A stretch of 5,886 bases of DNA from Chloroflexota bacterium (GTDB taxonomy: Bacteria > Chloroflexota > FW602-bin22 > JAMCYS01), in NCBI GenBank assembly GCA_021847625.1, contig JAJZQK010000255.1:1-5886 (forward strand), written 5' to 3'. Shown here piece by piece: positions 778-5,886 of the stretch. How positions within the stretch are numbered: position 1 is the first letter of the stretch; every line of letters starts with the position of its first letter. The notes under the pieces were generated by a model. The model ran no database searches. It saw nothing but the letters and a program-made list of their open reading frames with translations, and was not told the DNA's origin. Both the position numbers and the translations under genes were made by a program.

Positions 778-1263
778 ATGCGTCCGAAGGGGGTAGTAGC
801 CGCCCAATCAGGGCGCCGAGCGAGTCGGAACCTACGAGGCATGCCGTTTGTGGCGAAGAAACGCGTCCTGCTTATCGACTATGACCGTGAACTGATGGAG
901 GTCTTCGGCGAGCTGCTGGAGGACAGCGGCATCGAGGTTATCCCCCACACCTGCCAGGGAAGCACCTGCGTCTGCGCGGAGAAGGCGCTCGCCGTGGCGC
1001 CCGACCTGGTGCTTGTCAACGTGGCCCAGACCTCCGGCTGGAACGCCGACCTCCGGGGCTGGCGCTGCCTTCGCCACATCAGGAGCGATCCTCGCACCCG
1101 GCAGTTGGCCGCGCTTGGTTACAGCATCCTCGACTCATGCACGCTAGAGGAACTAGGAATCGCCATGTCTGCAGATGGACTGGTAATCCGCCCCGGCATC
1201 AGCAACCCCGGCGACTTCACGGATGATGTCGCCCGGAGCCTGCAGGTCGGTCGCGTCGCCTAG
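778..1263 (+). CDS. Degenerate single-domain receiver-like protein, 161 aa
   Basis: Residues 27-157 resemble a CheY-type receiver: a KKRVLLIDYD first strand with the acidic pair at D34/D36, a helix (ELMEVFGELLEDSGIEV), then PDLVLVNV where the phospho-acceptor should be. At that position residue 81 is Asn instead of Asp, and the conserved Lys near the end appears as Arg138 (GLVIRPG). Phosphotransfer at the usual Asp is therefore impossible. No output domain follows. There is a cysteine group C59-x4-C64-x-C66, plus C97 and C121, which is unusual for a receiver. ATG 778 is chosen for GAGGGGG (766-772) 5 nt upstream; this gives a basic 26-residue N-terminal extension. ATG 841 would remove it but has only weak SD. 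The next gene begins 33 nt later and is probably cotranscribed. Known pseudo-receivers act by protein contact; this one's partner and role are inferred only. Confidence 0.75.
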   Translation: MRPKGVVAAQSGRRASRNLRGMPFVAKKRVLLIDYDRELMEVFGELLEDSGIEVIPHTCQGSTCVCAEKALAVAPDLVLVNVAQTSGWNADLRGWRCLRHIRSDPRTRQLAALGYSILDSCTLEELGIAMSADGLVIRPGISNPGDFTDDVARSLQVGRVA

Positions 1264-1296: not shown

Positions 1297-1686
1297 ATGG
1301 ATATGGAAGCGACCTTTCCAGGCGGCAAGAAAGTTGCCGTCCATTATCGCGGTCTCTCCGTCGTCACCGATCAGCCGCGGCAAGTGGGGGGTGACGACAC
1401 GGCCCTTTCCCCCACCGAACTGTTTCTGGCATCAATCGTCGCCTGCGCGGGTTACTTCGTGCTGGTCTTCTGCACCCAGCGCAACATCTCCCTGGAGGGG
1501 ATCAAGGTAACCCAAAGCATGGAGGTCGACCCCCGCACCCATCTGGTCAGCAGGTTGATCATTGATATCCGCCTGCCCGAGGGCTTTCCGGAGCAGTACA
1601 GGCCCGCCGTGATACGCGCGGTGGACCAGTGCACGGTGAAGAGGCATCTACAGAATCCCCCGGCCATCGAGGTCAGAACGGTATAG
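1297..1686 (+). CDS. OsmC/Ohr-family protein, 129 aa
   Basis: This is a small OsmC-fold protein of about the usual family length. Recognisable parts are the N-terminal strand pair (EATFPGGKKVAVHYRG), TDQP near 24-27, the SPTELFLASIVACAG helix (38-52) and DQCTVKRHL (110-118). Cys50 and Cys112 are at the two redox-Cys positions of the family, with Glu41 preceding the first; Cys59 is extra. OsmC and Ohr proteins reduce organic hydroperoxides at the first Cys, usually with lipoyl or dithiol donors. The exact subfamily and substrate here cannot be told, and some OsmC-like proteins have other roles. ATG 1297 is preceded by AGGTAGG (1279-1285) at a rather long 11 nt, and an in-frame TAG at 1282 rules out upstream starts; ATG 1303 is the only close alternative. 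It lies 33 nt after the receiver-like gene and has no visible promoter of its own. Confidence 0.9.
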   Translation: MDMEATFPGGKKVAVHYRGLSVVTDQPRQVGGDDTALSPTELFLASIVACAGYFVLVFCTQRNISLEGIKVTQSMEVDPRTHLVSRLIIDIRLPEGFPEQYRPAVIRAVDQCTVKRHLQNPPAIEVRTV

Positions 1687-1720
1687 GCGTCCCCTTCCCG
1701 CGGCCCGCTCCGGCTTTGCG

Positions 1721-1744
1721 GGCGCCTCTCGCGGAGGCGCCTTT
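1721..1744 (+). terminator. Probable terminator after the OsmC gene
   Basis: A perfect 8-bp GC-rich stem GGCGCCTC (1721-1728) / GAGGCGCC (1734-1741) with a 5-nt loop is followed by TTT, 35 nt after the OsmC stop. The T run is short, so termination may be partial. A competing 6-bp hairpin GCCCGC (1703-1708) / GCGGGC (1718-1723) overlaps its left arm. Confidence 0.6.
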
Positions 1745-1819
1745 GCCTAGGCCCGGCAAGCCGGCCTACGCCGTTAGCTCCAACAGTTCGCACGAATCTG
1801 GCGCAGGCGTCAGAAGGCA

Positions 1820-1867
1820 GCGGGGCAGCCCCCAGTCGCCGGAAGCCCCGGCAAGGGTCTGCCCCGC
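1820..1867. repeat. Long inverted repeat between convergent genes
   Basis: GCGGGGCAG (1820-1828) pairs perfectly with CTGCCCCGC (1859-1867), a 9-bp stem. It encloses a second possible stem GCCGG (1838-1842) / CCGGC (1848-1852). It begins about 29 nt past the aldolase stop on the minus strand, where a transcript-end structure would be expected. No clean T run follows on either strand, so it may protect or slow transcripts, and it is not a canonical terminator. Confidence 0.4.
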
Positions 1868-1895
1868 GAAGGACGGCGTGCTCTTGCCCCAGGGC

Positions 1896-2747
1896 CTAGG
1901 CGCGCCCCACGGAGCCGAAGAGGTGCATGTAGTGGGCGGAGATGTCGGTGAAGCCCTGCCTCGCCGCCAGCATGACCTTCAGCAGGTGCGCCTTGCGGCC
2001 CTCTCGCTCCATCACCTCGCGCATGTTCTGCATCGCCTGCACGGACATGTCGGTGAAGATGTTGATCTTGCGGATGCCGCCCTCGACGGCCATCCGCAGG
2101 CGCTCGTCGCCGGTGGAGGAGCCGCCGTGCAGCACCAGGGGCACCGGGACGGCCGCGTTCAGCCTGCGGAGCAGATCGTAGTCGATCTGCGGCGTGCCCT
2201 TGTAGAGGCCGTGCGCGGTGCCGACGGCCACGGCGAGGGCATCCACGCCCGTCTTCTCCACGAACTCGACCGCCTGCGCGGGGTCCGTGTACCAGCCCGT
2301 GTCCAGCGCCTCCTCGGCCGACTGGTCGCCCTTGCCCACGTGCCCCACTTCGCCCTCCACGCTCACGCCCATGGCGTGGGCGGCCTGTACCACCGAGCGC
2401 GTGATGGCGATGTTGTCGGCCAGCGACTGGGTGGAGCCGTCGAACATCACGGCAGTCATCCCCGCGCGCAGGGCCCGCATGCACGACTCGTAGCTACGGC
2501 CATGATCGAGGATGGTGGCGACCGGTATGTCCAGTGGCGCGGCCAGGCCGTTCACGGCCTTGACCAGGTTGGCAAACCCACACAGCTCGCCGAAGTGCTC
2601 CGGGATGGCGATGATCACCGGCGAGCGGAGCTCCACCGCCACGTCCAGCACCGCCCGGCAAGTCTCCATATCGACGACGTCAAACGATCCCACGCAGTAG
2701 CCGTCACGGTCGGCCGCCGCCAGCAAATCAGACATAGGAACAAGCAT
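1896..2747 (-). CDS. Class II (zinc) fructose-bisphosphate-type / ketose-bisphosphate aldolase, 283 aa
   Basis: This is a TIM-barrel class II aldolase of the FbaA/GatY/KbaY superfamily, at about the family's length. The enzyme class cleaves a ketose (bis)phosphate to dihydroxyacetone phosphate and an aldehyde, using a divalent metal. Visible marks are GSFDVVDMET near the N-terminus (20-29), LDHG (80-83) with the catalytic Asp81 and metal His82, VEGEVG (130-135), GTAHGLYKG (176-184, His179), LHGGSST (206-212, His207) and KINIFTD (227-233) for phosphate binding. The metal ligands and phosphate loops look intact, so it should be active. The precise sugar substrate is not readable; FBP, tagatose-bisphosphate or a specialised ketose are all possible. 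ATG 2747 has AGGAGGG (2759-2765) 11 nt upstream; ATG 2735 is an in-frame alternative further from it. It has its own promoter (2921-2949), so it need not be expressed with the regulator upstream. Confidence 0.93.
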   Translation of the reverse strand: MLVPMSDLLAAADRDGYCVGSFDVVDMETCRAVLDVAVELRSPVIIAIPEHFGELCGFANLVKAVNGLAAPLDIPVATILDHGRSYESCMRALRAGMTAVMFDGSTQSLADNIAITRSVVQAAHAMGVSVEGEVGHVGKGDQSAEEALDTGWYTDPAQAVEFVEKTGVDALAVAVGTAHGLYKGTPQIDYDLLRRLNAAVPVPLVLHGGSSTGDERLRMAVEGGIRKINIFTDMSVQAMQNMREVMEREGRKAHLLKVMLAARQGFTDISAHYMHLFGSVGRA

Positions 2748-2819
2748 GCTTTCGTGAACCCTCCTCTAGGCAGACCGGCCATCGCCCGTGCTGCCAGCAT
2801 TATGCACGACACAAGACGC

Positions 2820-2883
2820 CCGCCTCCGTCCCCGCAGGCGGCCGCCCCTCGGACGTGACTACATCCATTCTGCCGCCCGAGGG
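2820..2883 (-). other. Structured 5' leader of the aldolase mRNA
   Basis: In minus-strand RNA, CGCCCGAGGG and CCCTCGGACG (plus-strand positions 2874-2883 and 2846-2855) form a 10-bp stem with one G-U pair and an 18-nt loop. The mismatch in the plus-strand reading (A-C) becomes G-U only in the minus-strand transcript. A second 6-bp hairpin, CCGCCT (2820-2825) / AGGCGG (2836-2841), follows. The leader runs from about 2914 to 2748. I recognise no known riboswitch family. Confidence 0.4.
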
Positions 2884-2920
2884 AGGCCTACCCCGTGCAA
2901 CGGAGAACCAGGCCAAGCAG

Positions 2921-2949
2921 ATTGTAGCAGAGCAGGCAGGAGGTGTCTA
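2921..2949 (-). promoter_or_regulatory. Sigma-70-type promoter of the aldolase gene
   Basis: On the minus strand, TAGACA (2949-2944), a 17-bp spacer, then TACAAT (2926-2921). Each box matches the vegetative consensus at five of six positions and the spacing is optimal. The -35 box starts 2 nt past the TGA of the response-regulator gene. The expected transcription start is near 2914, leaving a leader of about 165 nt before ATG 2747. Confidence 0.72.
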
Positions 2950-2950
2950 T

Positions 2951-3673
2951 TCAGCTTGTGGGAGGGGTGTTGGGGTCGGCGTCGGGGGGATTGCCGCCGG
3001 ACAGGCCCTCCTTGATGGCGTAGGCGGCGGCCTGGATGCGGTTCTGCAGGTGCAGCTTCTCCAGGATGCTGCGGAGGTGGGCCCGCACGGTGTTCTCACT
3101 GATGCCTAGGGCCAGACCGATATCACGGTTGCTCTTGCCCTTTGCCAGCTCCTTGAGGATGCCGCACTCGCGCCGCGTGAGGCCCGCTGGCGAGGGACTC
3201 ACCGGTCGCTCCGCCTGCGGGGGAGGCGCGCTCAGCTCGCGGAGGAGGTCGTCGGCCACGGCGGCGGAGACGACGACATCCCCACCGGCGATGAGGCGAA
3301 TGGCCTCCAGGAGTCTGCTCGCGTCGACGTTCTTCAGCATGTAGCCCTTGGCGCCGGCCTTCATGGCTTCCACAAGGTCCCGCCCCTCTTCGGAGACGGT
3401 GAGGATGAGGATGTTTACCCGCGGCAGCTCGGCCCTGATGAGGCGCGTAGCCTCCAGGCCGCTCGTGTGAGGCATGCGGATATCCATGAGGACGACGTCC
3501 GGCCGTAACTCGCGCGCCTTCGCCACGGCCTCGCCCCCGTCGGCGGCCTCCCCCACGAGCTCGAGAGCCGGGTTTTGGCGCAGCATGTAGGCCAGGCTTT
3601 GCCGGAAGAGGGTATGGTCGTCCGCCAGCAGCACTCTGATCTTATTGTCTTTCTCGCTCGCCGTCTTCTCCAC
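2951..3673 (-). CDS. NarL/FixJ-family response regulator, 240 aa
   Basis: This is a two-domain, DNA-binding response regulator. The receiver (about residues 12-130) has the acidic pair D18/D19, phospho-acceptor D64 in VVLMDIRMP, T92 in ILILTVS and K114 in GYMLKN, so it is competent for phosphorylation. After a Pro-rich linker (148-163), a LuxR-type helix-turn-helix runs from 164 to about 224 (GLTRRECGILKELAKGKSN, then ISENTVRAHLRSILEKL). A short Pro/Asp-rich tail ends the protein. GTG 3673 is preferred because AAGGTAGG (3680-3687) lies 6 nt upstream and the resulting length suits the family. The frame could extend to TTG 3760 but without SD and with a disordered Pro/Arg-rich head. It lies 133 nt downstream of the formate dehydrogenase gene on the same strand, with no promoter I can support between them, so readthrough is likely. 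No sensor kinase is in the window. Control of formate or respiratory genes is inferred from position. Confidence 0.93.
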   Translation of the reverse strand: MEKTASEKDNKIRVLLADDHTLFRQSLAYMLRQNPALELVGEAADGGEAVAKARELRPDVVLMDIRMPHTSGLEATRLIRAELPRVNILILTVSEEGRDLVEAMKAGAKGYMLKNVDASRLLEAIRLIAGGDVVVSAAVADDLLRELSAPPPQAERPVSPSPAGLTRRECGILKELAKGKSNRDIGLALGISENTVRAHLRSILEKLHLQNRIQAAAYAIKEGLSGGNPPDADPNTPPTS

Positions 3674-3704
3674 GCTGCGCCTACCTTGCGTCTCTACGTG
3701 CTCA

Positions 3705-3738
3705 GCCCGTTGCCGGGCATGGGCCTCCGGCGGCCCAT
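3705..3738. repeat. Two adjacent hairpins between the formate dehydrogenase and regulator genes
   Basis: GCCCG (3705-3709) / CGGGC (3714-3718) with a 4-nt loop directly abuts ATGGGCC (3719-3725) / GGCCCAT (3732-3738) with a 6-nt loop. No T run follows on the minus strand, so this is not a canonical terminator. It could be an mRNA-processing or stability element between the two cistrons. Confidence 0.4.
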
Positions 3739-3806
3739 CTAACCACGCGGGCGGCGGCAATCGGCACGCCCTCGCGAGCCTTCACGCCGACTGCTGCCCA
3801 ACCCCA

Positions 3807-5886
3807 TTATTCTGGCTTCGCCTCACCGGCCAAGAGGAGCGGCCGCCCCTCCTCGACTTTGCTCACCTTGATGGCGCAGACCTTGAGCTCCTGGATCTTG
3901 GAAATGGGGTCCAGCGCCGAGCTGGTGAGCGTGTTCGTCGGCGATTCCGCGAAGTGGAAGGTCATGAACACCATGCCCTGGGGCACCTTCTCGCTCACCC
4001 GTACCCGCGCCGTCACCTCTCCCCGGCGCGAGGCCACCTTCACCTTGTCGCCGTCCACCAGATCCAGCTTGGCCGCGTCAACCGGATTGACCTCCGCCCG
4101 CTCCTCGGGAGCGAGCTCCGTCAACCCTTTCACGCGGCGCGTCAGGCTGCCGGTGTGGTAGTGGTAGAGCGAGCGGCCGGTAGAGAGCAACAACGGATAC
4201 TCCTCGTCCGGCAGCTCGCGCGGCGGCAGGTAGCGAACCGGCGTGAAGCGGCCGAGGCCACGGGCGAACTTGCCGACGTGCAACACCGGCGTGCCGGGAT
4301 GATTCGCGTCGGGGCAAGGCCACTGCAGCCCGCCCTGCGCCAGCCTCTCGTGGGATAGGCCGCCGTAGCTCGGCGTTACAGCCGCGATTTCGTCCATGAT
4401 GGCCGAGGCGCTCGGGAAGGCGAATTGCCGTCCGGAAAGCCCTAGCCGCGAGGCCACGCGCCGGGCGACCTCGGCGACGATGTCCCAGTCCTCCCGGGCC
4501 TCCCCCGGCAGGGGCACCGCCCGGCGCACCATCTGCACGCGCCGCTCGGTGTTGGTGAAGGTGCCATCCTTCTCCACGAAGCTGGCGCCCGGCAGCACCA
4601 CGTCGGCCAGCTGCGCCGTCTCCGTGAGGAAGATATCCTCAACGACCAGGAAGTCGAGCTCCGCCAGTGAATGCGCCGTGTGCGAGGCGTTGCCCTCGCT
4701 GAGGACGGGATTCTCGCCCAAGATGTACATGGCCGTTATCTCGCCCCGGTCGATGGCCCCCATCATCTCCGTCATCGGCAAGCCCGGCACGCCCGGCAGC
4801 TCGGTATCCCAGGCCTTCTCGCTGCGGGCACGTATCCCGGCGTCGGCGACCTTCTGATAGCCGGTCAGCACGTCGGGCAGACAGCCCATGTCGCAGCAGC
4901 CCTGCACGTTGCTCTGCCCGCGCAGGGGGTTGACGCCGCCGCCGACCTTGCCCACGTTGCCCGTCAGCATCGCCAGGTTGGCCACGCCCATCACGTTGTT
5001 GGTGCCGCTCGTGTGCTGGGTGATGCCCATCGCGTAGACCAGGCTCGCGGCGCCGAAGCGCGGTTTGGCGTAGGCGCGGGCGGCCGCCCGCAGATCCTCT
5101 TCCTTCACGCCCGTTATCCGCGCCACGACGTCCGGCGTGTACTCGGCCAGGGACTCCGCCCAGGTCCCGAAGTTCTCCGTGCGCGAGGCCACGTAGTCCT
5201 CGTCCCAGAGGCCCTCGTCGAGGATCATCTTGGCCAGACCGTTCAACAGCGCCACGTCCGTCCCCGGGCGATGGCGCAGCCAGATCGTGGCGTAGCGGCA
5301 GAGCTCGATGTAACGCGGGTTGGCCACAATCAGCGCCGCCCCCCGCTCACGCACGGCCCGCTTGATGGCCAGCGCGGCGATGGGATGCGCCTCGGTGGTA
5401 TTCGACCCAATGACCAACAGCGCCCCGGATTCCTCCAGATCGCCGATCGGATTGGTCATGGCACCGCTCCCGAACGAGGTGGCAAGACCTGCCACCGTGG
5501 GGGCGTGTCATATACGGGCACAATGGTCTATGTTGTTGGTCTTCATCACCGCCCGCACGAACTTCTGCATCACGTAGTTGTCTTCGTTCGTGCACTTGGC
5601 CGAAGCAAGGGCGGCGAAGCGGCCGCGATGCTCCACCAGTTTGTCGGCCACGAGGTCGAGCGCCTCGTCCCAGGACGTCTCGACAAAAGCGCCGTCGCGC
5701 TTCACGAGCGGCTTGGTCAGGCGATCCGGATGGTGGACGAAGTCGAGGCCGAAGCGCCCCTTCACGCAGAGGCTGCCCTTGCTGACCGGGTGTTCGCGGT
5801 CGGCCGTGGCCCCCACCACGCGGTCGCCCTTAATCTGCAGGACGATGCCGCAGCCGCAGCCGCAGTAGGGGCAGGTCGTGCGCACC
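3807..5886 (-). CDS. fdhA: Formate dehydrogenase catalytic (alpha) subunit, selenoprotein, 5' end at window edge
   Basis: This molybdopterin (Mo/W-bis-MGD) enzyme oxidises formate to CO2, or the reverse. The window holds 692 residues in one frame if TGA 5510-5508 is read as selenocysteine. Numbered from the first whole codon (GTG 5885-5883), C5, C8, C12 and C40 form the [4Fe-4S] motif, followed by K42. NNIDHCARI leads to Sec126 and His127, the catalytic pair (Sec140/His141 in E. coli FDH-H). LRGQSNVQG supplies the conserved Arg322. The C-terminal dinucleotide-binding domain spans about 562-680. Alignment from memory with FDH-H (715 aa) is good throughout, so little or nothing of the core is missing. 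GTG 5885 could be the start, but FDH-H has a few more residues before the first Cys, and NAD(P)-linked enzymes have a NuoG-like extension, so the true start probably lies outside. The partner subunits are not in the window. The gene is also called fdhF. Reading the TGA as a true stop would wrongly split it in two. Confidence 0.96.
5465..5510 (-). promoter_or_regulatory. Selenocysteine TGA codon with bacterial SECIS hairpin
   Basis: The TGA (5510-5508) is followed after 11 nt by a perfect 7-bp stem GGTGGCA (5496-5490) / TGCCACC (5484-5478) closing a GGTCT loop (5489-5485). The E. coli fdhF SECIS has the same 11-nt distance and the same GGUCU loop, which SelB binds. A lower stem is possible from CGC (5505-5503) with GCG (5467-5465) and CCC with GGG (5471-5469). 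The reading frame continues through the TGA without any other stop, and His follows as in Sec-type formate dehydrogenases. Confidence 0.95.

Follow-up and report, generated by a model that had tools for sequence, protein, structure and literature searches.

The window (the whole 5,886-nt stretch of DNA analysed here) carries fdhA, the gene for a formate dehydrogenase alpha subunit, on its minus strand (3807..5885; 692 residues plus stop). The frame was open from the window edge at 5885 to a TAA codon ending at 3807, and its sole internal stop was a TGA codon at 5510-5508. The product, FdhA, passed the curated cut-off of TIGR01591 (789.3 bits against 666.25) over model positions 1-672 of 672 and contained, in this order, the Fe4S4, molybdopterin, and dinucleotide-binding domains (Pfam PF04879, PF00384, and PF01568). 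The sequence-only reading of this DNA had named a joined 692-aa product. It is very probably partial, with the 5' end of fdhA lying beyond the window and the N-terminus cut by the window end, because 115 of the 120 listed database relatives (the best 120 of 7999 scored) were at least 780 aa long and most of the 120 carried further Fe-S domains or an extra N-terminal Fe-S region according to Pfam.

Just downstream of fdhA and in the same direction lies a NarL-type response regulator gene (2951-3760, minus strand; Response_reg and GerE domains), whose best NCBIfam model, NarL, gave 175 bits against a cut-off of 250. The window also encodes a class II ketose-bisphosphate (fructose-bisphosphate type) aldolase (1896-2747, minus strand), an OsmC-like protein (1297-1686, plus strand), and a receiver-like 140-aa frame (841-1263, plus strand; KKRVLLIDYDRELMEVFGELL). 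For the OsmC-like protein, TIGR03549 (OsmC/YcaO) and a model named "OsmC-related (seleno)protein" matched below cut-off, and the frame contained no internal TGA; no Pfam or NCBIfam model matched the receiver-like frame at E 1e-3. Apart from the hairpin in fdhA, the only perfect Watson-Crick hairpin in the window with a 7-bp stem and a 5-nt loop was found at 1722-1740, 36 bases past the OsmC-like stop (GCGCCTC-TCGCG-GAGGCGC). It is possibly a terminator, although a terminator scan of 1600-4200 returned none.

Under translation table 11, the fdhA frame falls into two minus-strand pieces: an upstream piece of 125 aa (5508..5885), which is still open where the window ends and holds the 4Fe-4S domain and the start of the molybdopterin domain, and a downstream piece of 562 aa from a GTG codon (3807..5495). 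That standard gene calling would split the gene had been predicted, and for the downstream piece this was borne out, as the database protein for this contig (P0002, 550 aa) starts at Met143, past the TGA. The next most identical proteins among the 120 listed, P0004 (75% identity, 552 aa) and P0076 (73%, 548 aa), also start just past the TGA position, which is what one would see if a selenocysteine (Sec) gene had been split in all three cases. This pattern bears on the reading of the locus as a pseudogene or split gene, in which mutation of a Cys codon to TGA left the enzyme dead or truncated. Cys versions of the family do exist (30 of 79 relative loci), but such decay is hard to reconcile with a frame open for 692 residues across both sides of the TGA, with intact domains and a similar GC3 before (0.87) and after (0.90) the codon, or with the two closest proteins starting just past the same point, and we regard it as very improbable.

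The in-frame TGA codon and its counterparts

The TGA (5508..5510, minus strand), here read as selenocysteine, is codon 126 of the partial FdhA and stands in the peptide HCARI-U-HAPTVAGL, at the catalytic Sec position, as the sequence-only reading had claimed. A total of 79 relative loci were found with this FdhA protein among genome contigs. Alignment with these Sec and Cys formate dehydrogenases, a check which that reading had proposed, revealed TGA in 49 loci, TGC in 15, and TGT in 15 at this codon, and nothing else. Position 126 aligned with a Cys in 7qv7 and, in 9t1s, a solved structure of an F420-dependent formate dehydrogenase, with an X, which denotes a non-standard or unknown residue and here presumably stands for Sec. 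FdhA has the Sec/Cys-then-His arrangement (U126-H127) together with Arg322 in the motif PLRGQSNVQG; we take position 126 to be a metal ligand and His127 and Arg322, the latter as the active-site Arg, to have catalytic roles. The 120 listed database proteins were set aside as a Sec/Cys sample: 117 show C and the other three begin past the position, the list is biased because gene callers split Sec genes, and C in these rows may stand for Sec, U being passed on as C in processing.

These codon counts also weigh on two other explanations. The sequence is known from a single contig, which leaves room for a sequencing or assembly error with TGC or TGT as the true codon. However, a one-base slip would need to hit the Sec codon exactly, where 49 of the 79 relatives have TGA, and would have to do so in a copy that also has the hairpin seen in only one of the 30 Cys loci; an error of this kind is extremely unlikely. 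An altered genetic code, in which TGA would stand for one of the common amino acids (Trp or Gly), would be compatible with a frame that stays open when TGA is read as a residue. Against this, the frame has just one TGA, the nearby genes for the aldolase, the OsmC-like protein, and the response regulator have open frames that cover their Pfam domains under table 11, and relatives carry either TGA or a Cys codon at this position, so that the probability of a changed code appears negligible.

The hairpin downstream of the TGA codon

A bacterial SECIS apical hairpin was located at 5478..5496 on the minus strand, 11 nt past the TGA. It reads GGUGGCA-GGUCU-UGCCACC, with seven Watson-Crick pairs and no bulge between 5496-5490 and 5484-5478, a loop at 5485-5489, a TGA-to-loop distance of 18 nt, and a free energy of -11.2 kcal/mol for the 19 nt. 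Sequence and pairing were as previously claimed, that is, a perfect 7-bp hairpin with a GGTCT loop. The additional claim that the hairpin is as in E. coli fdhF held for the loop and failed for the stem. E. coli fdhF has a UGA and a downstream hairpin with GGUCU in the loop, but the upper stem of its SECIS contains a bulged U, which is read by SelB, whereas the window stem is fully paired. At the protein level, the window FdhA belongs to the same enzyme superfamily as E. coli FDH-H (chain 1aa6, E 1.6e-149), although most listed window relatives differ from the latter in domain layout by their extra N-terminal Fe-S region.

Section 5 of PMC13188914 gives a bacterial SECIS model with a loop of 3-9 nt and an upper stem of 4-16 bp, G at the first two loop positions, a UGA-to-loop distance of 16-37 nt, and a minimum free energy not above -7.5 kcal/mol. 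When compared directly with these published values, the window hairpin agreed with all four constraints (loop of 5 nt and 7 bp, GGUCU, 18 nt, and -11.2 kcal/mol).

A check with a SECIS covariance model had been suggested in the sequence-only reading. Rfam SECIS_3 (RF01989) matched 5455..5513 on the minus strand with 59.2 bits (E 2.9e-12), covering all 59 model positions, but the score lay under the gathering score of 63, and six columns (three pairs) were flagged as non-standard in the printed alignment. On four calibration loci, the same model gave 42.5, 47.6, and 42.0 bits for the TGA loci L002, L003, and L040 and 35.7 bits for the Cys locus L016. Because a Cys locus also receives such a score, part of the SECIS_3 score reflects shared fdhA coding similarity, and we did not treat the score as clean proof.

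To what extent the hairpin exceeds chance was assessed against one million synonymous recodings drawn with the gene's own codon usage. At least six pairs arose in 27% of them, seven pairs in 13%, and seven pairs with a GGTCT loop in 0.7%; such stems are common because the pairing is partly forced by the peptide sequence VAGLAT and by a GC-rich choice of codons. Folding of a 56-nt segment did not stand out from that of shuffled sequences (z -1.26), 22 of 200 of which folded equally well. Given the 13% of recodings with a 7-bp stem and this low z, the hairpin was rejected as sufficient evidence by itself. Three rare codons, GCA-GGT-CTT, are adjacent at the element, a cluster that was spotted post hoc: GCA is used once among 77 Ala codons, GGT is one of four among 63 Gly codons, and CTT is one of three among 65 Leu codons. 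GCA and CTT produce the A-U closing pair of the window, which among the 49 TGA loci is C-G in 36 and A-U in seven; the two states differ at two third positions, and the differences are synonymous and mutually compensating. The excess over chance comes mainly from the codons used and from comparison with relatives, and it is the comparison that decides.

That comparison revealed a clear association between hairpin and codon. At least five contiguous pairs from the loop together with a GGNCT loop were present in 44 of the 49 TGA loci (seven pairs in 17, six in 20, and five in seven) but in only one of the 30 Cys loci. Cys FdhA loci (L005, L016, L065, and others) share the family and a similar surrounding peptide with the window, yet they carry TGC or TGT and lack the hairpin in 29 of 30 cases. 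Among peptide-matched loci, all 44 with TGA had at least five pairs, as did one of the 11 with Cys; a GGT loop accompanied the pairs in 39 of these TGA loci and in none of the Cys loci. The peptide-match filter removes exactly the five TGA loci that miss the hairpin. These five (L072, L073, L074, L078, and L079) lacked the exact hairpin geometry. They are more distant homologues (31-32% identity) and keep GGTCT at the loop position with different pairing around it, and perhaps represent a variant SECIS geometry.

Covariation was analysed in 41 of the 49 TGA loci (40 distinct rows), with the window excluded. Pairing was retained in 91.1% of cells, and 31 two-sided changes were counted against a shuffled mean of 10.0. 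The covariation score was 0.388; shuffles averaged 0.177, none of 500 was as high, and slid versions reached at most 0.116. Weaker measures were not decisive, as two-sided-change pairs were matched by 30 and further pair types by 95 of the 500 shuffles, and the outermost stem pair was unpaired in 22 of the 40 distinct rows. A covariance model of our own (R1), built from the same 41 TGA loci without the window, gave the window 60 bits (E 1.1e-11), whereas the best of the 30 Cys loci were L019 with 34.8 bits (E 7.2e-6) and L027 with 30.4 bits (E 7.5e-5). These matches in Cys loci mean that part of the signal is shared coding sequence. For the pseudogene reading, both this difference in score and the retention of the hairpin with its three rare codons are further points against it.

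None of the 40 distinct rows of TGA relatives left the stem U unpaired (U-A in 28, U-G in 12). Because the window stem also lacks a bulge, SelB of this lineage might read the loop together with an unbulged stem instead of the bulge of the E. coli element, in which case recognition would have diverged between phyla; we consider this idea speculative and rather unlikely.

Selenocysteine machinery and host placement

To examine the Sec machinery, we used 23 genomes hand-picked from the 79 loci (12 TGA and 11 Cys) and 14 controls. SelB exceeded its cut-off in 11 of the 12 TGA genomes, one of the 11 Cys genomes, and two of the controls, and SelA in nine, one, and one (E. coli), respectively. SelD exceeded its cut-off in nine TGA genomes, three Cys genomes, and two controls (E. 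coli and M. jannaschii); a selD copy with an internal TGA was present in all nine SelD-positive TGA genomes and in none of the three SelD-positive Cys genomes. A tRNA-Sec at or above the gathering score of 47 was found in nine TGA genomes, four Cys genomes, and five controls, and at least 55 bits were reached in eight TGA genomes and one Cys genome, this second threshold having been set after the scores were seen. The weak tRNA-Sec matches are probably other long-arm tRNAs. All four components (SelA, SelB, SelD, and tRNA-Sec of at least 55 bits) occurred together in six of the 12 TGA genomes, and the only sampled TGA locus in a complete-genome record, L034, had SelA, SelB, SelD, and tRNA-Sec. 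Among the 12 TGA genomes, SelB was missing from one, SelA from three, SelD from three, and a strong tRNA-Sec from four; we provisionally put these gaps down to draft assemblies and, for the tRNA, also to the scoring of at most 117 candidates per genome. This machinery was seen in genomes of relatives, with the window organism's own genome outside the sample, a point that counts in favour of the pseudogene reading.

A Cys enzyme does not imply an organism without Sec, because the genome of Cys locus L043 has SelB and tRNA-Sec and that of L016 has SelA. The L016 genome (Anaerolineae) has SelA over the cut-off, a SelB-like 481-aa fragment of 125.6 bits (below the cut-off), and a formate dehydrogenase with Cys encoded by TGC, and probably represents a Sec-to-Cys switch in a Sec-using organism.

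The host of the window is probably a member of Chloroflexota, since the aldolase is 98% identical to a Chloroflexota MAG protein, which points to the host phylum. In a 56-row tree, the window grouped with P0004 and P0076 (support 100/99) and then with P0003 (100/99), and 14 of the 17 loci in the adjoining clade were from Chloroflexota. The Chloroflexota Sec FdhA loci L002, L003, L006, L007, L010, L012, and L017 share the TGA codon and the hairpin position with the window, with 56-59% protein identity and a GGUCU loop (GGACU in L012), whereas the window stands on a separate three-row branch with P0004 and P0076. Both Sec-containing formate dehydrogenases and an elongation factor specific for Sec have been reported in Chloroflexi, with Chloroflexota Sec FdhA in An-B22 and other single-cell genomes (PMC4959059 and PMC5736913).

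Eight Sec/Cys changes were counted on the tree, or six when only well-supported branches were considered; the count of eight is uncertain because the Cys labels of P0003, P0005, P0006, and P0041 may hide Sec. Such repeated switching fits the Sec-to-Cys conversions described for FdhA in PMC1794560.

The gene neighbourhoods were also compared. In three of the 79 loci (L030, L043, and L067), all of them Cys loci, a relative of the NarL-like regulator (37-54% identity) lies on the strand opposite to fdhA, within approximately 5 kb upstream of it. At E 1e-6, none of the 79 loci matched the aldolase, the OsmC-like protein, the second receiver-like frame, or the 69-aa frame, and this missing synteny says little because many of the loci end at contig ends.

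Probable selenocysteine insertion in fdhA

The position of the codon, the hairpin, the SECIS model match, and the comparison of Sec and Cys relatives agree in supporting Sec insertion, as judged from sequence. We conclude that fdhA almost certainly encodes a selenocysteine formate dehydrogenase whose UGA is decoded as Sec126 via the downstream SECIS hairpin, an element of the standard bacterial kind. The product would be the catalytic alpha subunit of a formate dehydrogenase containing molybdenum or tungsten, and the enzyme would be expected to act on formate/CO2. During translation, the hairpin in the coding sequence past the UGA would bind SelB carrying Sec-tRNA(Sec), and selenocysteine would be inserted as residue 126 instead of a stop, where it would serve as a metal ligand beside His127. 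Decoding of this kind suggests that the organism itself has SelA, SelB, SelC, and SelD, as the sequence-only reading had predicted.

Sec formate dehydrogenase is the commonest kind of bacterial selenoprotein, and the finding is therefore well supported yet ordinary. It corrects an annotation in which the database protein of this contig starts only past the TGA, and it extends the known Sec formate dehydrogenases by another member, probably from Chloroflexota.
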